Positions 1-29,044 of a DNA stretch of 29,330 nucleotides are shown piece after piece. A model generated the notes under the pieces. It worked only from the letters and a program-made list of their open reading frames with translations. It was not told the DNA's origin and did no database searches. The stretch covers positions 1-29,330 of IMG/VR virus record IMGVR_UViG_3300030450_000107, one strand, 5' to 3'. Origin of the DNA: a virus. Position 1 is the stretch's first letter; each line of letters opens with the position of its first letter. The position numbers were made by a program, and so were the translations under genes.

Positions 1-90
1 GCATCAGGAACTAAAATAGAAGAAATTACACAGAATGATTCGATTACGACTACTAGCGTTATCACTTCTTTGTCTGTCTTTAGTCAGTAA
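1..90 (+). CDS. C-terminal fragment of an unknown plus-strand protein (partial)
   Basis: Frame 1 is open from the first base and ends in TAA at 88-90, giving 29 residues rich in Thr and Ser and ending VFSQ. The true start would lie left of the window. It overlaps the first 56 bases of the exported-protein gene that starts at 35. The composition looks like the tail of a real low-complexity or fiber-like protein, and a tightly packed plus-strand gene pair would explain why the next gene has only a weak ribosome binding site. With no start visible and only 29 residues, this could also be a chance open frame. Confidence 0.35.
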   Translation, partial: ASGTKIEEITQNDSITTTSVITSLSVFSQ

Positions 91-562
91 TAAAGCAAGA
101 GCCGAAGGCGATACAAACGTACAGGCTCAACCTAATGCTGTTGGTAATTCAAGTATTATCAACCAGAATATGAATATTAATAATGGAATGACAGGTAAAC
201 AGCAGTTTGGAAACTTAGTTTGTAGTCAACCGACTATGGCAATAACTCCTTTTTATACAGGAAATGATGCACAGGGAGAAGATACATATTCTATAAACGA
301 AGGTTGGGGAGTTCAAATGAGTTTTATGATACCGCTAGGAGATAATCAAACTTGTAACGAACTATCCAAAGTAAAGCTAGACCTAGCCAAAGAAGAACTA
401 GACAAACAAGTGCATGATAAACACCTCGTTCGTATTTTGAAATGTCAGCAGCTTCACGCATCAGGCTATATGATAAACCCTTCTTCTAAGTACGCATACA
501 TCTGTGCTGATGTCATCAATATACGAAGTTATGTTAAAGCTAATCCCGAAAAATTTAAGTAG
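35..562 (+). CDS. Exported protein of unknown function with signal peptide
   Basis: This 175-residue protein is on the plus strand, convergent with the phage operon. Residues 1-23 form a classic Sec signal peptide: Arg3 and Arg5, a Leu-rich core at 6-17, and an ARA site before Glu24. The mature part starts with an Asn/Gln-rich stretch (27-50). It then has four cysteines (C63, C107, C137, C157), enough for two disulfides outside the cytoplasm. A Lys/Glu-rich helix spans about 110-136. The signal peptide implies action in the periplasm or at the envelope. I have a weak memory of similar signal-peptide proteins in marine cyanophages, but I cannot name a family. The upstream AGAAG is a weak ribosome binding site. 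It could be a lysis helper, a superinfection or envelope-modifying protein, or a host-derived cargo gene; none of these is proven. Confidence 0.75.
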   Translation: MIRLRLLALSLLCLSLVSNKARAEGDTNVQAQPNAVGNSSIINQNMNINNGMTGKQQFGNLVCSQPTMAITPFYTGNDAQGEDTYSINEGWGVQMSFMIPLGDNQTCNELSKVKLDLAKEELDKQVHDKHLVRILKCQQLHASGYMINPSSKYAYICADVINIRSYVKANPEKFK

Positions 563-1213: not shown

Positions 1214-2260
1214 TTATGTTTCTCCTAATTTCAAACAAATAAAACCATTTCTTGATTGAGAGGTTAAACCATGATAATTAACAGTACCACTTGAACTAGC
1301 CATATATCGCCATTTGTAGTTTGAAGTATCCGTAACATCAATTATATCTATTAAAGTGAAACTAGCATAAGTACCACCACCGCCACTGTAAGCACTACCG
1401 TAATTTTCATTTATAGAATTGTAAGAACTACCATTATTAGTACTTAAATATGATTTGATTCCAATATAAGTATCACCGTTTCCAGTAGCTTGTCCATTAA
1501 AAATAAGTAAATATATCCCAGTAGAAGGAAAACTAAATACTCCACTTGATTCTGTTAAACCTGTTCCAATCTTGTCAAAATATGTATCATTTCTTTCCCA
1601 ATTTGAAGTAATGTAATTATCTCCATAATTACTTAAACTACTTGAAATCCTCCAACTATCGACTTCTGTTAGTCCACTAACAAGATTAGTTAAGTTTGCA
1701 CCACTAATAGCAGGTAACGTAGCAGGGAATCTAGCATCTGGAACTGTGCCTGATGTAAGGTTGCTTGCACTTAAAGCTGTAAGATCTTTTGCTGTGTTCG
1801 CTGCTATAGCCGAGTTAATAGAGTTAGCTAACTTATCGGCTGTTACTGCATCATCAGCTAATTTAGATTCCGTTATGCTTCCATCTGCTACTGACCCTGC
1901 TATCTTAAATTCGCCAGCCATGCTTGCATGAGAAGAGCATTGGTAATACAAAGTATCAGGTGCATCATGCGGTACTGTGAATACTATCTCTGTGCCATTC
2001 CCTCCGCCATTATTTGTTACTCCTGTATTGTATGCGTCATTCGTACCACCATTAGCAATGCTGGTCTTTATATAAAACGGATGACCTCCAGATCTGTTTT
2101 CAAAAATATAAGTCTGTCCTCGAACAAGATATATTGTAGGGTCGTTAACTGCACCATTCAGACCTTTACCTGTAAAGGTATAGTGACTTGTACCACTAGC
2201 ACCTAAGACATATCTAAGGGTGTCTTCTATAGCCCTTGATGATACTTGTGTTAATGGCAT
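1214..2260 (-). CDS. Tail fiber-type protein with cupredoxin-like domain
   Basis: This 348-residue protein appears to have three parts. Residues about 25-121 look like a cupredoxin fold. H60 is followed by P-F, and near the end C108, H111 and M114 form C-x2-H-x2-M, the arrangement of type-1 copper ligands. Residues 122-195 carry fiber-style motifs (KLADDAVTADKLA-like, GTVPDARFP-like) typical of trimeric shaft regions. Residues 196-348 are Gly/Ser/Tyr-rich beta sequence with a pattern resembling C1q/TNF-type jelly-roll tips. The likely role is an accessory fiber or receptor-binding tip at the virion surface. Whether copper is bound is inference; related domains in phage structural proteins may have lost metal. 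It follows the 72-residue gene closely and precedes the proline-rich gene by 6 bases. Confidence 0.75.
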   Translation of the reverse strand: MPLTQVSSRAIEDTLRYVLGASGTSHYTFTGKGLNGAVNDPTIYLVRGQTYIFENRSGGHPFYIKTSIANGGTNDAYNTGVTNNGGGNGTEIVFTVPHDAPDTLYYQCSSHASMAGEFKIAGSVADGSITESKLADDAVTADKLANSINSAIAANTAKDLTALSASNLTSGTVPDARFPATLPAISGANLTNLVSGLTEVDSWRISSSLSNYGDNYITSNWERNDTYFDKIGTGLTESSGVFSFPSTGIYLLIFNGQATGNGDTYIGIKSYLSTNNGSSYNSINENYGSAYSGGGGTYASFTLIDIIDVTDTSNYKWRYMASSSGTVNYHGLTSQSRNGFICLKLGET

Positions 2261-3297: not shown

Positions 3298-5433
3298 TTA
3301 GATAGTTGCGATTAGTTTACCATTTGCATTTAAGCTAAAGGTAAATCCTGTAGCTGCAAAAATGACATCTTCAAAGTTATCATAATCTGTTCCAGATATA
3401 TTGTCCACACCACCATTAGTAGTTGTGACTATTAAATTACCAGCAGCGTTTGTATTAAATCCATAAACTTCAGGAGAAGATGCTGACTCAAAAGTTGGGT
3501 CTGCACCATTATTTGCTCTTAAAAATTTACCATCATTGCTAGATGTACCATGTGGTAATTTTGCTAACGTAACAGCTTCGTCTTTAATGTGATTTGTACC
3601 AACTGCTCTAAGTGAGTTATCAGAGGCATGGTCAGATAACTTGGCATCTGTTACAGCATCAGGAGCTAATTTAGTTGATACGACAGCAAGGCTGCCTATT
3701 TTATCTTCTGTAACTGCACCATTAATTATCTTATTTGTTGTTACTGCATCATTCTGTATTTTTCCTGACGATACAGAATTGTTTTGTAGGATTGCTGTTG
3801 TTACTGTGTTGTCACTTGGAGTTCCAATATTTACAGTAGTACCCATTACGACAGCGTGATAGCTTGCACCAGTAGCAGGTGCAGCAGCTAACTTAACTGT
3901 GCTGCTATCCAACGCAAAACCTTCTGTTGGTGTAGATGTACCAGCATTAGGTTTTTGTATTACACCTTCTATTATTAATAATATTTGTTGTGCATTTGTG
4001 GGTGCATTTGTAATAGTAAAGTTTGTTGTACTACCATCAAATGCAGGGCTGAGTGTAGATATAAAGAAGTTACCAACAGATTGTGCTTCTTCCCAAGCAC
4101 TTGTAGTTCCGTTATATACCATTAACTTGCCTGTACTTGTATTAAAAAACAAGTCACCTGCATCATTGTTAGTTGTAGGGTTAGAAGAACCTACTCTATA
4201 TCTTTCTGCAAAATCATTTATATCTCCACTAAGACCTACAAGGTCATCTTCTTTTAAAGTTGCTTTGTGGTATGTATAGTTTTGACCTGCACCTGTAGAA
4301 ACAACAAGAAATCTAATACCTGCTGCAACACTAGCTCCACGAAAGTTTGTAGCAATACCAGATATATTTACTGTCGTACCACCTACTGTCTGACCAGATG
4401 CAGTACCAGTACTGCTAACTGCCATACCACCTGCATCTGCAATACTTATAACAACACCTGACGCTGGTTGTGTATTAGGAAAAGAACTTTCATTTGCTAT
4501 TGCTTCTAAACCACCAATAGGTGCTAACTGTGCAGCTACATAATCTACGATTGCACCACTTGTAGGAAACTTAGTATCGTCATCAGTTATAGTTGTTGCC
4601 TTTTGTAAACCATCTAATTGGTTAAGGTCTGCTATATCAGATGTCAAAGCTGTACTGTCAGCTAATTTAGAAGCTGTACCAGATTGCATACCTGCCAAAG
4701 TTTTTAGCTCTGCATCTGCAATTTTGGCATTTGTCACAGCGTCATCTGCCAGTTCACTTGTATCAACTGAGTTTGCTGCAAGATGACTAGCATCAAGAGG
4801 ACTACCTGCTATAAGAGTTTTTATTTCTGATACTGTTTGATCTGCGGTAGCGTTATCTTCAATATTATTTAATTTAGTGTGGTCATTGTCAGTAAACACA
4901 TTACTATCACTAGCTGCTTCTACTGCTGCTCTTATCTCTGCGTTTGTTTGATCTCCTGTAGCACCTGCTTCTATTGCATTTAATTTTGATAATAAAGCAT
5001 CAGTAAATGCGTTTGTATTAGAATTATTTTCATAGGCAGTTTTTATTTCCGCATCTGTTTGATCTGCTGTTGCTCCTTCTTCAACAGTTGCTAATTTATC
5101 TGTAATTTCTTGTTGAGCAAATAATACTTGATCTGTGTTTGTATCTAAGTCTGTTTCTGTTAAAACGCTACCATCTTGAAAGTCTACTTTTTTTGTACTT
5201 ATACTTGTATCTCTTTGAAATTTTATATTACCAGTACCAGAAGGAGGAATATTGCCAGAAGTAAAAGTAACTGATGAACCACTAATATTGTAGTGAGTGC
5301 CTAGTGTTTTAAGAACTCCACCAACAGTAACATCAACTTCAGAGTTTTCTAAAAAAGAAAATGATATAGCAAAAGTAGCGGTACTACCATTACCGTTATG
5401 AGTTTGTGAAGTAGCTGTTGTATTGGTAGCCAT
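3298..5433 (-). CDS. T7 gp17-like tail fiber protein
   Basis: This 711-residue protein has a residue 1-115 region that matches the T7 gp17 N-terminal pattern that attaches the fiber to the tail tube: T-x-N-G-x-T-F, a V-x-V-x-G beta unit, a short G-x-x-Y turn and R-D-T. Residues 117-208 hold 37-residue repeats (I-E-x-G-A-T-x-D-Q-T-x-A-E-I). Residues 209-300 and 540-640 have K-L/A-V-T shaft repeats. Residues 420-455 (D-A-G-D-L-F-F-N, W-E-E-A) resemble a small module common in marine phage fibers. The C-terminus (655-711) ends in beta sequence. It comes directly after the gp16-like gene, as in T7. T7 gp17 is about 553 residues; the extra length is in the repeats. It should form the trimeric host-recognition fiber. 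Confidence 0.88.
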   Translation of the reverse strand: MATNTTATSQTHNGNGSTATFAISFSFLENSEVDVTVGGVLKTLGTHYNISGSSVTFTSGNIPPSGTGNIKFQRDTSISTKKVDFQDGSVLTETDLDTNTDQVLFAQQEITDKLATVEEGATADQTDAEIKTAYENNSNTNAFTDALLSKLNAIEAGATGDQTNAEIRAAVEAASDSNVFTDNDHTKLNNIEDNATADQTVSEIKTLIAGSPLDASHLAANSVDTSELADDAVTNAKIADAELKTLAGMQSGTASKLADSTALTSDIADLNQLDGLQKATTITDDDTKFPTSGAIVDYVAAQLAPIGGLEAIANESSFPNTQPASGVVISIADAGGMAVSSTGTASGQTVGGTTVNISGIATNFRGASVAAGIRFLVVSTGAGQNYTYHKATLKEDDLVGLSGDINDFAERYRVGSSNPTTNNDAGDLFFNTSTGKLMVYNGTTSAWEEAQSVGNFFISTLSPAFDGSTTNFTITNAPTNAQQILLIIEGVIQKPNAGTSTPTEGFALDSSTVKLAAAPATGASYHAVVMGTTVNIGTPSDNTVTTAILQNNSVSSGKIQNDAVTTNKIINGAVTEDKIGSLAVVSTKLAPDAVTDAKLSDHASDNSLRAVGTNHIKDEAVTLAKLPHGTSSNDGKFLRANNGADPTFESASSPEVYGFNTNAAGNLIVTTTNGGVDNISGTDYDNFEDVIFAATGFTFSLNANGKLIATI
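4810..5085 (-). repeat. 37-residue tandem repeats coded in the fiber gene
   Basis: Residues 117-153, 154-190 and 191-208 of the gp17-like fiber are two full copies and one partial copy of a 37-residue unit containing A-T-x-D-Q-T and then A/S-E-I. The period is exact between the two full copies. Such units probably form a rigid trimeric shaft and could change copy number by recombination. Confidence 0.65.
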
Positions 5434-13987: not shown

Positions 13988-14440
13988 CTAGGCAATCCTC
14001 AAAAATTCGTAGAAGGGTTTTTGTTGTAGACCAAACTCTTTGTGATAATTCACAAAAGTAAAGCCAAGACTTTTTAACCATTTTATAGCAGAAGTGTTTT
14101 CTGCATATACATAATTATAAAGTATTTTATAAGAGCCTAGTAAATTATCAACCCACTCTCTGCCTTGTCTTATTAATTGTATGCGATATTTTTTATTACT
14201 ATATAAATCATCAGTAGCAACACACCATATACAACCATCATTCTGAACTCCACAAAGTCCTATTGGTTCATCATTATCATTTGCTATTGCCATATTTACT
14301 TCACTACCCATATAAGTAAAACTTAGTGCATCTTCTGGTTTCATACCTGTTTGATAATGTGCTTCTATTTTGTCCATAACTCTCATGTTGTTTACTACAT
14401 ATTTAAAATCCTTTAATGTTGCTTTTCTTAAATGACCCAT
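13988..14440 (-). CDS. T7 gp13-like protein with GNAT acetyltransferase fold
   Basis: This 150-residue protein lies between tail tubular protein B and the gp14-like gene, exactly where T7 encodes gp13 (138 residues), which is needed for internal core assembly. The sequence has a GNAT-like layout: an N-terminal helix (1-50), paired strands around residues 65-92, a long helix near 100-115, and the typical late N-x-x-A-x-x-W-L-x-x-L-G-F motif at about 125-140. A clear acetyl-CoA pyrophosphate loop (Q/R-x-x-G-x-G/A) is not obvious, so it may be structural rather than enzymatic. Its ATG shares a base with the TAA of the gene before it (TAATG). Confidence 0.82.
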   Translation of the reverse strand: MGHLRKATLKDFKYVVNNMRVMDKIEAHYQTGMKPEDALSFTYMGSEVNMAIANDNDEPIGLCGVQNDGCIWCVATDDLYSNKKYRIQLIRQGREWVDNLLGSYKILYNYVYAENTSAIKWLKSLGFTFVNYHKEFGLQQKPFYEFLRIA

Positions 14441-23108: not shown

Positions 23109-23150
23109 AAAAAAACTCTGAGTTTGGTTAGCTCCTCTCAGGGTTTTTTT
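23109..23150 (-). terminator. Bidirectional rho-independent terminator after the exonuclease gene
   Basis: An 8-bp stem (ACTCTGAG with CTCAGGGT, one G-T wobble) is extended by A/T pairs and flanked by A-runs and T-runs on both sides, so it can terminate in both directions. It overlaps the exonuclease stop and separates the replication genes from the late genes. The loop is about 14 bases. Confidence 0.85.
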
Positions 23151-23883
23151 ATGGGTTCCAAAGTTTTACTTCACCTGTATTGTAATTGTAATCTCCGCTT
23201 CTTAGTATTCTTGTCAGCCTTGCATTGAGAATTGCATCAGCCATTGTATAACCTTTCTTCTCGTAAGTCTCTAGGACCTTGTGCCATAAAGCTTCTTTAG
23301 TATCAGGTACATCAGCCAGTATCTTAGAAGCTGTGACCATACCCATACCTTTAATACCTATTATCCCATCACCTGAGTCACCTGCCATAGTCATTTCAAA
23401 CCAACGTCTATCAGCTTTGCGTTGTGTGATATGTTCGATTTCGTCTTCAGCTATCAGCTTACAAGGTATAGTCTTCATGTCTTTATCTACAGATACTATG
23501 ATTGGGTCTTTGTATTTAGTTGAACCTGCTAAGAGTCCAAGCACATCATCACCTTCTAATCCTTCATAAGACTCAGAGATATAATTTTGTTTTATCTGTT
23601 CAATAATACTTTTCAAAGCTAAAGGCTTACGCTTACCTATCCTGTTAATCTTGTACTCTGGGAATATCTCATGTCTAAATGTTGGATAAGAAGTAAAGCA
23701 CATAACAACTTCTCGATCTCCACCTGCAATAGATTTATATATATCCAACCTGTTATCTATAAGCTGTAATATATCTCGTTCATCTGAATGTAAAGTATGC
23801 TCCCAATCATTCCATCTTGTGTCTTGTTCACACGCACAACATGAATTGTAGATCAACCAATCAGCATCAATAAGTAAGGTCAT
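23149..23883 (-). CDS. 5'-3' exonuclease, FEN family (T7 gp6-like)
   Basis: This 244-residue enzyme should remove RNA primers and degrade host DNA from 5' ends. All key metal sites of the FEN family are visible: D6 and D8 (I-D-A-D), E110, D112 and D113 (L-E-G-D-D), D133 and D135 (V-D-K-D), and D169 and D172 (G-D-S-G-D), followed by the helix-hairpin-helix G-I-K-G-M-G at 176-181. F74-P75 and K78 to K85 fit the DNA-gripping arch. It is a little shorter than T7 gp6 (300). Its GGAG SD lies at the end of the helicase gene, 3 bases away; in T7 the DNA polymerase gene would lie between them. Confidence 0.95.
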   Translation of the reverse strand: MTLLIDADWLIYNSCCACEQDTRWNDWEHTLHSDERDILQLIDNRLDIYKSIAGGDREVVMCFTSYPTFRHEIFPEYKINRIGKRKPLALKSIIEQIKQNYISESYEGLEGDDVLGLLAGSTKYKDPIIVSVDKDMKTIPCKLIAEDEIEHITQRKADRRWFEMTMAGDSGDGIIGIKGMGMVTASKILADVPDTKEALWHKVLETYEKKGYTMADAILNARLTRILRSGDYNYNTGEVKLWNP

Positions 23884-23886
23884 AGT

Positions 23887-25503
23887 TTATTCTCCAAAGA
23901 TACTTTCATAAACTTCTAACCGACCTGTCTTCTGGTCGTACAATAACTTGTCAACTTCTCCTGTCATACCTGTGTGTCTAGACTTAAGTATTTTTAAAGT
24001 TAATCGTTGTCTTTCACTGGCTTCTCCTACCTGATTTCTTGATGCACCTAAGACAACATCACTTAGTTGTAGTAGTCCAGAGCTGCCCTTCAAATCACTG
24101 GTAGATATTTCTCTTCCTTCTTCATGTGCCTGTCCTTGTGGTCTGCGTAAATGACTAACAAGAATAAGTGCTATACCAGTAGATTCGCATAGACTTCTAA
24201 GCTTAGTCATAGTCACATCTATAGCTCGTCTTTCATTATCTAAATCTAAACCAGAGGTAACTATTGTTATATGATCTAGTATGATTATCTGTACCCCATC
24301 AACCGTAGCCAAGTAACGTATCTGTTCTAGTAAAGTATCAGGGTCAAGTGAACCAAAGTGATTATATAAAAATAGATTTCTTGTAGACGTTAGCCTGTCA
24401 AATGATTTCTTTAATTCGTCTTGGTCTACTGTTTCTTCTGCTGCCAGATGCAAAGGTATATTCAAATCAATACCAACCAATCCCTGTAAGGTTCTTTGTA
24501 CTGATTCTTCTAGTCCGATATACCCTAGCTTAAGATTCCTTTTGACTAAGAAATGATATGCCAGTTCTCTGCAAATCGTACTCTTACCAGCTCCACTGCC
24601 AGACGCTACAGTAAACAGTTGAGTAGGAAATATGCCCTGCGTATATTCATTTAATTTAGGAAACGGAAAGTCTGATATTGGTTTACTTGTTTCTTTAATG
24701 AATAAATCCCATGCGTCAGCTCCATTAATTAAACTGTCTGGTCTTGATGGTCTTGCCTTCCAAAGTTTTTCTCTAACAATCTCTTCTTCATTTAAAACTA
24801 AATGATCGTTAACATCATTACGATCTAACTTAGCTATGGCAACTTTGCCCTTCGGTAAAACTTCTAAACATTTATCTGCTGCCTTCATGCCAGCTACATC
24901 ATTATCAAAACAAATAACGATACGACAAAAGGTATCTAACCATTTATAGTTTGCTGCTAAATACTTAGATGCTGATTGTACTCCTGACGGAATAGATACA
25001 CAGGGAAATTTATTACCTTGTATCTGTGACCCACTCATACAATCAATCTCTCCCTCGAAGATGCTTATGAATACTGAACCGTTACCTCCATGCTGTCTCC
25101 ATAGATGTTGACCCCATAGCATTACGTTAGACATATCACCTATCCATATAAACTTCTTATCTTGAAAGCGTATATGCTGTGCAACATCATTACCTTTCTG
25201 ATCTTTATATGTGGCTACCTGTACTGGCTGTCCTCTATACTCTGCTATCCCATAACCAAATAGTTCGCAAGTCTCCTTGGTGATTCCACGTTTAGGTAGA
25301 GCCATTGGCTTGACAGGTAAAAGTTTTGGATTTGTTTTCTTGATCGGTATGATGTTGGCTGTCATCTTCTTTTCTTTTTTATTTGGGTAGTAAGTGTAAC
25401 CGCAATCCATAGTGAAGCAGTGTTCGTGACCATCATCAAAGACAGCACAGTTTTTCTTGCCACACTCAGGGCAAACTTTCTTAGCTTTGTAGCTTGACTT
25501 CAT
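23887..25503 (-). CDS. Primase-helicase (T7 gp4-like)
   Basis: This 538-residue protein (T7 gp4A is 566) has an N-terminal zinc ribbon with C11, C14, C29 and C34 (C19, H26 and H28 also close). A TOPRIM primase domain shows E150-G-E152 and D200-N-D202. The RecA-like helicase has Walker A G-S-G-A-G-K-S-T at 302-309, the E332-E333 region, Walker B I-I-I-L-D (to D410) followed by H411, and an R-x-x-L-K-I-L-K-S-R-H segment (501-510). It unwinds DNA and makes primers at the fork. Met47, after an A/G-rich stretch, could start a shorter form without the zinc ribbon, as in T7 gp4B. The upstream start lacks a good SD. Confidence 0.96.
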   Translation of the reverse strand: MKSSYKAKKVCPECGKKNCAVFDDGHEHCFTMDCGYTYYPNKKEKKMTANIIPIKKTNPKLLPVKPMALPKRGITKETCELFGYGIAEYRGQPVQVATYKDQKGNDVAQHIRFQDKKFIWIGDMSNVMLWGQHLWRQHGGNGSVFISIFEGEIDCMSGSQIQGNKFPCVSIPSGVQSASKYLAANYKWLDTFCRIVICFDNDVAGMKAADKCLEVLPKGKVAIAKLDRNDVNDHLVLNEEEIVREKLWKARPSRPDSLINGADAWDLFIKETSKPISDFPFPKLNEYTQGIFPTQLFTVASGSGAGKSTICRELAYHFLVKRNLKLGYIGLEESVQRTLQGLVGIDLNIPLHLAAEETVDQDELKKSFDRLTSTRNLFLYNHFGSLDPDTLLEQIRYLATVDGVQIIILDHITIVTSGLDLDNERRAIDVTMTKLRSLCESTGIALILVSHLRRPQGQAHEEGREISTSDLKGSSGLLQLSDVVLGASRNQVGEASERQRLTLKILKSRHTGMTGEVDKLLYDQKTGRLEVYESIFGE

Positions 25504-25579
25504 TGGTCCAATATTTAATAAGAAGTTTTAATTCAGCTATACGTTTCTGTGCGTGTTTAATTTTTTCTTGCTTGGTCAT
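25481..25579 (-). CDS. Possible 32-residue bridging ORF
   Basis: ATG at 25579, inside the end of the endonuclease gene, opens a frame that runs across the intergenic gap and stops with TAA at 25481, inside the primase gene. It overlaps each by 23 bases. The product is a plausible amphipathic helix with Lys/Glu/Ala and ends K-Y-W-T-N-E. A K-Y-W-T segment also occurs in the 68-residue gene upstream of RNA polymerase. No clear SD is present. It could couple primase translation to endonuclease, because the primase ATG itself has no good SD. Chance is a real alternative. Confidence 0.4.
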   Translation of the reverse strand: MTKQEKIKHAQKRIAELKLLIKYWTNEVKLQS

Positions 25580-25988
25580 ACCAATCGTCAGGAATAAATT
25601 TTTCACAGTGTTGAAACCCATGTCTCGTACACCAATCGGCATACGAGATAGAGTTCTTGGCCTTGGATAGTTTGGTCTTGCTGTTTTGAAAACAGAACCT
25701 TATATCTAGGTCGGGTCGTTTCTTCTTAATTGCAAGATGCTTGCGTCTATCTTCTTTCGAGAAGTAGCCCTTCGTTTCAACAATAAAATTGTTGAGTATA
25801 AAGTCAGGCCGATAGGTGCAAGTAATTTCATAGTCAATGCTGATTGTTTCATAGGTAAAGATAATTTTCTTTTTAGTTAGCTTGTCAGCAAATTGACTTT
25901 CAAATTTACTCTTGTATTTAGAAGTCGGCTGCTGTTGGGGTCGGCACTTTTTCTTCATAGCTTGATGGTGCTTCTGCTTCAAAGTCAC
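25557..25988 (-). CDS. Endonuclease I, Holliday junction resolvase (T7 gp3-like)
   Basis: This protein resolves branched DNA and helps degrade host DNA. With start GTG at 25988 it has 143 residues (T7 gp3 has 149). The active-site residues E30, D62, E71 and K73 (S-K-F-E; R-P-D-F; V-E-T-K) have almost the spacing of T7 E20, D55, E65 and K67. GTG at 25988 is chosen because GGAGGAG lies just upstream. Other starts are GTG at 26000 and ATG at 25958; the last would give Glu20 as in T7 but has no SD. The gene overlaps the end of the SSB gene by 71 bases in another frame. Confidence 0.9.
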   Translation of the reverse strand: MTLKQKHHQAMKKKCRPQQQPTSKYKSKFESQFADKLTKKKIIFTYETISIDYEITCTYRPDFILNNFIVETKGYFSKEDRRKHLAIKKKRPDLDIRFCFQNSKTKLSKAKNSISYADWCTRHGFQHCEKFIPDDWYDQARKN

Positions 25989-26580
25989 TAGCTCCTCCAC
26001 CTGTAAATGGAACTATATTTCTAAAGCAAATACTTAATGGAATACATTTAATACCCACACCATTACCGCCAGCATCATAACCTTTAGCAAGGAATGACAT
26101 CTGACCTGTGGTTTCTGGGTCTATCTTTTCTAGCTTCTGTCTCTCTTCTTCACCCATGAGTCTAAGGTCATTGGTGTAAAAGGCAACAGGTGTATTGTTA
26201 TATGGCTGTCCTGTATTTGGATTGACACCACTAGCTTTCTTACTAACCCTTATAACTAAACCGTCTTCTTCAAAAGACCAAGGGAAAGATGGTTCACCTG
26301 TCTTCAAACTTTTAGTAAGAGTAAACTTTCTATCTGGGTATGCTTCTTTCAATGCACCCTTCCATCTTTCAAGTAGTTGCTCTAGCTGATCTACCATAAA
26401 CTGTGTAGCTTCAACCAGTTCTCCTTTGTCATCTTTCATCTGTGTACCCACAGGAATAATGATGTCACCTTTCCATTTTCTTACACCTTTGTATTCATCT
26501 GGGGTGACGTAGTAAGACCAACGAAAACGAGTTCCATTAGGTGAGACCAGCTTTATAGTCTCAGGCTTGAGTTCTGCCAT
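25918..26580 (-). CDS. Single-stranded DNA-binding protein (T7 gp2.5-like)
   Basis: This 220-residue protein (T7 gp2.5 is 232) is expected to coat ssDNA and contact replication proteins. An OB-fold-type beta sequence fills the first 180 residues, with F-R-W-S-Y-Y near 18-23 and W-K-G-D-I near 37-41. The tail (about 196-220) is acidic and ends in D-F, as in T7 gp2.5, where the terminal Phe and acidic tail bind polymerase and helicase. Here the tail is encoded where the endonuclease gene overlaps. Order RNA polymerase - SSB - endonuclease I agrees with T7. Confidence 0.9.
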   Translation of the reverse strand: MAELKPETIKLVSPNGTRFRWSYYVTPDEYKGVRKWKGDIIIPVGTQMKDDKGELVEATQFMVDQLEQLLERWKGALKEAYPDRKFTLTKSLKTGEPSFPWSFEEDGLVIRVSKKASGVNPNTGQPYNNTPVAFYTNDLRLMGEEERQKLEKIDPETTGQMSFLAKGYDAGGNGVGIKCIPLSICFRNIVPFTGGGASDFEAEAPSSYEEKVPTPTAADF

Positions 26581-26647
26581 AATCTTTTTTTGTAATCTGG
26601 TTTAATCGTCTATGAAAGACGTATATAAATTTTACCGTAGTTCTTTG
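26581..26647 (-). promoter_or_regulatory. AT-rich gap with hairpin before the SSB gene
   Basis: The 67-base gap holds a 5-bp hairpin, CGTCT / AGACG (26607-26621) with loop of 5 bases, and an upstream TTTATATACG stretch on the minus strand. There is no T-run after the hairpin, so a terminator is unlikely. A promoter or an RNA processing site is possible. Its location between the polymerase gene and the replication genes fits a phage promoter, but no consensus can be checked. Confidence 0.3.
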
Positions 26648-29044
26648 TTATGTAAATATATATGGTGCTGTCAACACATCTGTTATATCAAAATCCCCCA
26701 TCTGTAGTGCAGTGGGTAAACCTTTAATATCACTAAGTTGTTCTACTGAATTATGGTATAGGTAATCTAAATTATTATCACTGTAAATATAAAAGAAACT
26801 TTGCTTAACACATTCAATAAATCTTTCTAGTTCACTGGCTGGACTACCATAGCAATCGTGGATAATACAAAAGTTTTCTAACCCCTGCTTACCTGCTTCA
26901 CATAAACTTAAGTGACAGTGTGCAGCATCTAAACTGTGTATGTAATTACTAGGGAATCCCTGCAACTGTTTTCTTTTATCAACCCTAGTCTTATCAGTTT
27001 CATTTAAAGAAAGTTTTATACTAGAAGTTTCTAGTTTTGTAGTAACTCTTTTTGTTTTTCCCTGATAATAATTTTGTTGAATATAAAAACCTGACGGACT
27101 AAACCATGCCATTGGTTTATTCTCATTATTAAAAGACTTGGCATAGGCTGACAAATGTTTTAATAGCTCTGGACTCTCAGGTGTAACAAACTCTACAGCT
27201 TCTTGAATAACAGCAGCCAAATAAAAATTGTTCTTAAAATTTTTCGCCATAAAAACATTTTCATTTACAAAATATTTTTCTATGTAATTAGCTATGCCAT
27301 AGGTTGTTGAATTATATGGAACCATCAAGACAGGTTTCTTTATAAATGCTCTAGTTAATTTATCTCTTTCTTTGTACCACGCTTTAGCTTCTGGATTGTT
27401 GCTTTGCTCTAGCAGTATCAAGACAACATCAAGTACTTGCTTGTATAAATCTTGTGGCTTTGCAACGTATTGAAGATTAACTTTGTTAGCTAGTTCATCA
27501 TTGAAAGTAAGGCCAGCTATATGTTGATAGCCATTGTTAGTACCATCAAGACAACAGCAATGGTGAGATATATAACCTTTACCAATCCTTTGAAATTCAT
27601 GCCACTCTTTGCACCACTGTAGAAATTGGAAAGGTTCTTTAGCTTGACCCCATAGGTCTACGTTCTCAATCGGATTGTCATAAACTTGTTCAGCTATATC
27701 TATGCCATAGGTATAAGACCAATCCAATCTATCTCTGTAGGATAGTTTGCTTAAACCAAAATGATTAGCTCCACAGATAGCCAGCCAATCTACATCTTGT
27801 TTAGTATTCAATGCTCCACCCTTGGCAAACACATGAAGACCTCTAGCTATATCATTTCCCTGCGGATTGAAGTTAGCGGTGACAGGATACATTCGACCAA
27901 CCCAATCAAATTGATATATGTGATGGAAAGTTTCACCAACATATTTCTTAGCTGTGTCTATCATTGAAAGAATCTGATACCGTTTGCTTTTATTCTGTGC
28001 GTTCATATCATGTATTAAACTAGCTAAGTATCGCCACTCCTTTTTGCTTTCTGGGTTTGTATCAAAGTCAAGTGGTTTAGTTGGTAGTTCTTTTAAGTCT
28101 CGATTGATTAATGAACCTACTTCTATTCCTTCCTCCCAACAATATACAAGAGTATCAAGAACAAATTTATCAACTGTCCACTCAGTTTGACTTGCCAGAG
28201 TTAAAGCTTTTAGACATATTGTTAAGTCTTGTTCTTGTAATTTTTTTAAGTGGTTCCGATCAGTAACCTTTACTGCACTTGTTTGTAATCTCTTAGTGTA
28301 ATATCCTCCATCATTTATAGCTGTCCATTCTCTAGGCTTATCATAGGTAGGCATAAGCAAAGGGTAGAGTGCAATCCTGTTAGCCCTACCCTGCTGTATA
28401 TATTTCATGTAGACATCAGTAAATATAAGATAACTTGTAGTTGTTTTCTTTACTCTCTTGTTGACCAGCTTGACCATTTGAATCTTTGTTGATAGTACCT
28501 CAATAAGCTTTAGCCCTACCCTAAGTTTATTAGCCTTAGTCCAAGGTTCAAACTTATGTCCTTTCCTGTTCATGTGATGAACCATAACCTTACGTTTATA
28601 GCCCTCGTGGTTTGTATCTTTAGTATGTTTTTTAATAGCTTTAAAATGTTTAGGGTCTTGCTTTTCAAACTCAGTAAACCTAAGTTCATCTTCTAACATT
28701 TGACCTATCTTCAAAGCTGTATGTGTTGTAGTTCTTCCTTGGCTAGTGCAATCAATAATTACTTTGAAAGCAATAAAAGAAACTACATCAAGATCAGGAA
28801 ATAAAGATAGGTATTTACCCGACACAGATTTAACTCCTACCTTCCCAGATATTGATTGCCATATATGTTTCTGTAGCTCTTTACTTAGCTGTTCAAGTCC
28901 AGCCTCAATCATATTTCTAGCGTAATAATTATTAGATTCTTTTCCCTTCTCTATGTTTCTATTCTGTTTACTTTGTTTGTTGTAGGCTGAGATACTAAGA
29001 ATACTTTGCTCTAGCTCTAGTTGTTTCTTGCTTGGTTTACTCAT
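26648..29044 (-). CDS. Single-subunit phage RNA polymerase (T7 gp1-like)
   Basis: This 798-residue polymerase (T7: 883) transcribes the phage genes. Motif A has the metal-binding D500 (L-D-G-T-N-N-G-Y-Q-H). Motif B has R565, K569 and Y577, matching T7 R627, K631 and Y639. Motif C has H729-D730 (H-D-C-Y-G), matching T7 H811-D812. N-F-N-P-Q-G-N-D near 391-398 and S-N-Y-I-H-S-L-D near 699-706 are also family signatures. The residue after Y577 is Asn, where T7 has Gly640. The shorter length is mainly in the N-terminal promoter-binding part. GAGG lies 8 bases before the ATG, and the start overlaps the preceding gene by 8 bases. Confidence 0.97.
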   Translation of the reverse strand: MSKPSKKQLELEQSILSISAYNKQSKQNRNIEKGKESNNYYARNMIEAGLEQLSKELQKHIWQSISGKVGVKSVSGKYLSLFPDLDVVSFIAFKVIIDCTSQGRTTTHTALKIGQMLEDELRFTEFEKQDPKHFKAIKKHTKDTNHEGYKRKVMVHHMNRKGHKFEPWTKANKLRVGLKLIEVLSTKIQMVKLVNKRVKKTTTSYLIFTDVYMKYIQQGRANRIALYPLLMPTYDKPREWTAINDGGYYTKRLQTSAVKVTDRNHLKKLQEQDLTICLKALTLASQTEWTVDKFVLDTLVYCWEEGIEVGSLINRDLKELPTKPLDFDTNPESKKEWRYLASLIHDMNAQNKSKRYQILSMIDTAKKYVGETFHHIYQFDWVGRMYPVTANFNPQGNDIARGLHVFAKGGALNTKQDVDWLAICGANHFGLSKLSYRDRLDWSYTYGIDIAEQVYDNPIENVDLWGQAKEPFQFLQWCKEWHEFQRIGKGYISHHCCCLDGTNNGYQHIAGLTFNDELANKVNLQYVAKPQDLYKQVLDVVLILLEQSNNPEAKAWYKERDKLTRAFIKKPVLMVPYNSTTYGIANYIEKYFVNENVFMAKNFKNNFYLAAVIQEAVEFVTPESPELLKHLSAYAKSFNNENKPMAWFSPSGFYIQQNYYQGKTKRVTTKLETSSIKLSLNETDKTRVDKRKQLQGFPSNYIHSLDAAHCHLSLCEAGKQGLENFCIIHDCYGSPASELERFIECVKQSFFYIYSDNNLDYLYHNSVEQLSDIKGLPTALQMGDFDITDVLTAPYIFT

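Follow-up and report, generated by a model that had tools for sequence, protein, structure and literature searches.

How does the tail fiber of a marine phage come to carry a domain that resembles a blue copper protein, and what might that domain do in the particle? The window analyzed here is a 29,330-base virus record, and the virus is a marine cyanobacterial, T7-like podoviral phage. A reading of its letters alone had proposed that one of its fibers begins with a cupredoxin bearing a complete type-1 copper ligand set. We asked whether the fold and ligands are real, whether relatives keep them, where in the virion the domain is likely to sit, and which role best accounts for these features.

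RESULTS

A cupredoxin domain at the start of a phage fiber

The fiber is a protein of 348 amino acids composed of three predicted parts (Table 1), and H60, C108, H111, and M114 are all present in its open reading frame (ORF) where the original prediction had placed them. The full-length protein is modeled with modest confidence (mean pLDDT, 72.6), and its head (aa 195 to 348) superposes on a C1q domain with a Z score of 16.4 and an rmsd of 2.0 over 130 residues (VIA-align). The T7 tail-fiber N-terminal domain belongs to a separate gene of 711 aa, where, judging from sequence, it is predicted to be a virion attachment of the T7 kind.

Table 1. Coordinates in the window of the fiber gene, its parts and ligand codons, and the attachment domain of the upstream fiber gene
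Feature	Coordinates	Strand	Basis or comment
348-aa fiber protein gene	1214..2260	-	N-terminal cupredoxin, then coiled coil, then C1q/TNF-like head
Cupredoxin domain, aa ~22-121 (model aa 14-124)	1898..2197	-	phrog_677, AF2, and type-1 Cu structure matches
H60 codon (HPF motif; first His ligand)	2081..2083	-	Read from sequence; conserved in homologues
C108 codon (thiolate ligand)	1937..1939	-	In register with amicyanin Cys
H111 codon (second His ligand)	1928..1930	-	In register with amicyanin His
M114 codon (axial Met)	1919..1921	-	In register with amicyanin Met
Long helix, aa 141-165, predicted	1766..1840	-	Shaft segment, probably a coiled coil of three chains (confidence low to medium)
C1q/TNF-like jelly roll head, aa 195-348	1217..1678	-	VIA-align to C1q domain
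T7 tail-fiber N-terminal domain, in separate upstream 711-aa fiber gene	5089..5424	-	PF03906, E = 9e-17

The cupredoxin fold is supported by profile, model, and structure matches that agree with one another. An AlphaFold model of aa 14 to 124, built from an alignment of 51 relatives collected by motif-based scans, is confident (mean pLDDT, 94.1; pTM, 0.87) and all-beta, with eight strands. The best Foldseek matches in the PDB are type-1 copper proteins, with AcoP, rusticyanin, HdNIR, and plastocyanin in the top rows (E values of 6e-5 to 1e-3). In VIA-align comparisons, the domain superposes on the N-terminal domain of HdNIR (2dv6, residues 26 to 134) with a Z score of 11.9 and an rmsd of 1.8 Å over 94 residues, and on rusticyanin with a Z score of 10.3.

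At the sequence level, profiles were required. Searched singly against PDB sequences, the fiber gave only chance antibody matches, and Pfam PF00127 (Copper-bind) scored 12.4 bits on the fiber alone, below the gathering cutoff of 21.2 (E = 0.22). By contrast, a 15-sequence family profile matched amicyanin among PDB sequences at E = 7e-4, and a 51-sequence profile did so at E = 1.2e-5. The family profile also matches plastocyanin; in both proteins, the Cys, His, and Met line up with those of the family. Among the 51 family members, 19 are matched by Copper-bind (E ≤ 0.01) and 17 by the NCBIfam amicyanin model. At the family level, phrog_677 matches fiber aa 13 to 122 (E = 3.7e-35).

The spacing of the last three ligands, C-x2-H-x2-M, is that of amicyanin. 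The first His falls 1 to 2 residues from the His of the amicyanin PHN motif in the profile alignment and is set in an HPF context instead, a context found around the type-1 His of multicopper oxidases (HPxHLHG). We consider the predicted domain to be supported as a cupredoxin with a full His-Cys-His-Met ligand set. A disulfide role for C108 was rejected, as it is the single Cys within the domain; C342, the only other Cys in the fiber, lies outside it.

Homologues mostly keep the ligand set whole or lose most of it together

If the four residues were dispensable, homologues should shed them freely. Retention was therefore scored in a sample collected blind to the ligands, by scanning viral contigs for DNA that encodes the motif DPTxYxxRGxTYxF, a stretch N-terminal to all four. 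A DNA pattern was chosen because the N-terminal 36 residues are too variable to serve as an alignment for scanning. The scan gave at least 111 unique copies, of which 3 were cut by contig ends and 108 were scored. The motif-based scans, which require the C and H motif, served to widen the survey and to supply the structure alignment, not to assess ligand conservation.

Among the matches listed, all four ligands are kept in 103 of 108 copies, and the full set occurs in 38 of 42 clusters formed at 80% identity. The five incomplete copies among these matches read E-S-S-H (two close relatives), S-S-D-M, H-S-T-M, and H-C-Y-M. Loss of the Cys and of the second His coincides in three of the four lineages concerned (Fisher p = 3.5e-4 by cluster, among the matches listed). 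All four ligands are invariant in a separate set of 15 diverse phage domains. One copy (locus L290) has lost the second His alone. The S-B05 tail fiber has lost H, C, and H together, and degenerate copies (S-B05 and the second domain of a gp10-like protein described below) are mostly without all three core ligands.

By these counts, homologues do not shed the ligands freely, the outcome that would have refuted the original prediction. Judged from the aligned sequences, the putative copper-type site is mostly retained whole or lost whole, as expected for a metal site; mostly joint losses are what a metal site, rather than a set of packing residues, would be expected to show. The near-intact ligand set in the tails of hundreds of related ocean viruses suggests that these tails hold metal, probably copper.

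The domain is widespread in cyanophages, mostly at the end of gp9

A search for the cupredoxin domain matched 364 phage records at E ≤ 10, of which 347 also pass E ≤ 0.01. Of the 364, 351 carry a name that marks them as Synechococcus phage, Prochlorococcus phage, or cyanophage. No Escherichia phage is among the 364, and a search of plasmids for the domain gave zero matches. Intact copies with noncyanobacterial hosts occur in gp9 of Pelagibacter phage Mosig and in a fiber of Methylophilales phage Melnitz. The closest isolate to the fiber is P-SCSP2, with 87% identity over aa 1 to 122, whose host is Prochlorococcus MED4.

In most cases, the domain is the C terminus of gp9, the T4-like baseplate-fiber connector of cyanomyoviruses. 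The gp9 body is present in 296 records, and the first ~39 residues of the cyanomyovirus body match gp9 of enteric T4-like phages. In phrog_677, which represents this protein (annotated as a baseplate wedge-tail fiber connector), this domain makes up the C-terminal ~105 residues, with the ligands kept. The 348-aa fiber is not itself gp9, as it matches only profile positions 304 to 410 of 412 and lacks the body N-terminal to the domain. Thus, the domain ends a connector in T4-like phages, whereas here it starts a T7-like fiber with a C1q-like head.

Other arrangements were also observed. At five cyanomyovirus loci (L064, L066, L068, L070, and L079), a gp10-like protein adjoins gp9 and contains two divergent cupredoxin domains, one with the ligands and one that has lost them; this pair offers a natural comparison for what the site contributes. 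At two loci (L071 and L075), the domain ends long proteins of the structural region and retains its ligands; one of these proteins, from S-H9-1, is annotated as a subtilisin-like serine protease. Contigs mostly of marine Bacteroidetes (loci L157 to L232), found by a scan that itself requires the C and H motif, encode the domain with H, C, H, and M, often C-terminal in long proteins.

The domain probably lies at the virion-proximal end of the fiber

Among 50 related fiber genes, the first 122 aa form one family, with all 1,225 pairs matching at a median identity of 84%. The last 150 aa, in contrast, split into 17 families. A conserved end for virion attachment combined with exchangeable receptor-binding heads is the usual fiber pattern. 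Because the N-terminal 122 aa are conserved and the C-terminal heads vary, the cupredoxin is probably the virion-proximal anchor of the fiber. Its position at a joint is suggested by this conservation together with the annotation of gp9.

Two other readings were considered and rejected. A place at the receptor-binding tip was rejected because the heads vary, whereas the domain belongs to the N-terminal stretch that related fibers share. Nor is it a phage copy of host plastocyanin (petE), as it is found within the fiber and within gp9 and tail-spike relatives rather than as a free carrier. The original prediction had raised, among other options, binding of a host copper or electron-transfer protein at the virion surface. 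Its fold and ligands hold up, but binding of a host protein is disfavored by the domain's location, N-terminal in the conserved stretch of the fiber and at the C terminus of gp9.

DISCUSSION

The fold, the ligand set, its conservation, and the modular position of the domain are supported by computation. From these we infer the metal, its occupancy, and the joint role with its mechanical purpose, and we propose, with a probability of roughly 55%, that a cupredoxin stapled by a metal ion, probably copper, serves as a joint between fiber and baseplate. The fiber chain would fold in the host and its ligand site would take up the ion, which would staple the ligand loops of the beta-sandwich, stiffening the joint and helping it to resist unfolding. 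Receptor binding would be handled by the exchangeable C-terminal heads, apart from the stapled joint. The cupredoxin would then be a structural module of virion-proximal joints, at the N terminus of this podoviral fiber and at the C terminus of T4-like gp9. It counts against such a staple that copper would have to reach a fiber assembled in the cytoplasm, that some tail homologues have lost the site, and that the L290 copy lacks the second His only.

The strongest competing explanation is a metal-free adaptor derived from a cupredoxin, a beta-sandwich connector in which the ligand residues pack the core or an interface. Some homologues have lost the site yet remain in tail proteins, where the fold can evidently function metal-free, and the persistence of such copies (the S-B05 tail fiber, the second gp10-like domain, L241/L288, and L296) indicates that the site is not required for the fold. 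However, packing residues would not be expected to be lost mostly jointly, nor does packing sit easily with a full ligand set in 38 of 42 divergent clusters among the matches listed and with its invariance in the 15 diverse domains; we regard the adaptor as unlikely, at about one chance in five. Copper might instead be functional. It could act as a switch that governs fiber deployment through redox state or metal, or it could be bait that exploits the host's copper uptake, much as the "Ferrojan horse" idea proposes for iron in tails. A complete type-1 set exceeds the needs of a structural site, and the 351 of 364 matching records named as cyanophages point to hosts that use copper; cyanobacteria handle it for plastocyanin. 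Yet the probable position at the conserved virion-proximal end rather than at the tip counts against both, and the intact copies in Mosig and Melnitz belong to phages of noncyanobacterial hosts, so that a switch or bait seems improbable.

A stapled joint might also hold a different ion in vivo (Zn, Ni, or Fe). Cupredoxin ligands can take Zn or other ions if copper is scarce, as it is in the open ocean. Against this, the closest solved structures are all copper proteins and the sequence favors no other ion, and we rate this alternative slightly lower still than the switch or bait.

Among known systems, those closest to the fiber domain include the mononuclear blue copper proteins (amicyanin, plastocyanin, rusticyanin, and the HdNIR N-terminal domain), which share its fold and its His, Cys, His, Met set. 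Unlike a soluble electron carrier, the putative copper domain is one part of a phage fiber. Iron-binding HxH domains of tail tips, which underlie the Ferrojan horse hypothesis, likewise place metal ligands in a phage tail part, but with another fold, other ligands, and another ion, and at the tip rather than at the anchor end. The cupredoxin fold and site are already known, and it is their placement in the fiber and baseplate joints of marine phages that is undescribed in the literature searched. That search, which paired blue copper proteins with phage tails, baseplates, or cyanophages and covered few subscription papers, found no description of it and no paper that calls the gp9 domain a cupredoxin.

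A loaded site would mean that some of the sea's most abundant viruses have a blue-copper domain in the tails of their particles, and the searched literature contains no report of type-1 copper in such a role. A broader and more tentative claim, to which we give somewhat less than even odds, is that marine T4-like and T7-like phages, including most isolated cyanomyoviruses, build a type-1 copper protein into the baseplate-fiber joint of every virion. Their particles would then be copper metalloproteins, dependent on copper for assembly, stability, or triggering. If so, phage assembly and decay would be tied to scarce open-ocean copper, and this would account for the C-terminal domain of cyanophage gp9, which has been annotated without being described. 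The domain is small and expressible and offers a simple test by color and metal content.

Other features of the window

The ORF translations of positions 23149 to 29044 read as a replication module with an RNA polymerase, a possible single-stranded DNA-binding protein, an endonuclease, a primase/helicase, and an exonuclease; no DNA polymerase ORF was read between these replication genes. A cyanopodovirus lineage without DNA polymerase, MPP-C, has been described and includes P-SCSP2 (PMC9860041). The apparent absence here fits the lineage of that closest isolate. An ORF of 175 aa at 35 to 562 (+), on the strand opposite the late genes, has a signal-peptide-like start and matches phrog_1755 (E = 2e-23) and phrog_848, both families without assigned function. 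Between the tail genes, an ORF at 13988 to 14440 (-) has a translation that by eye resembles a GNAT acetyltransferase.
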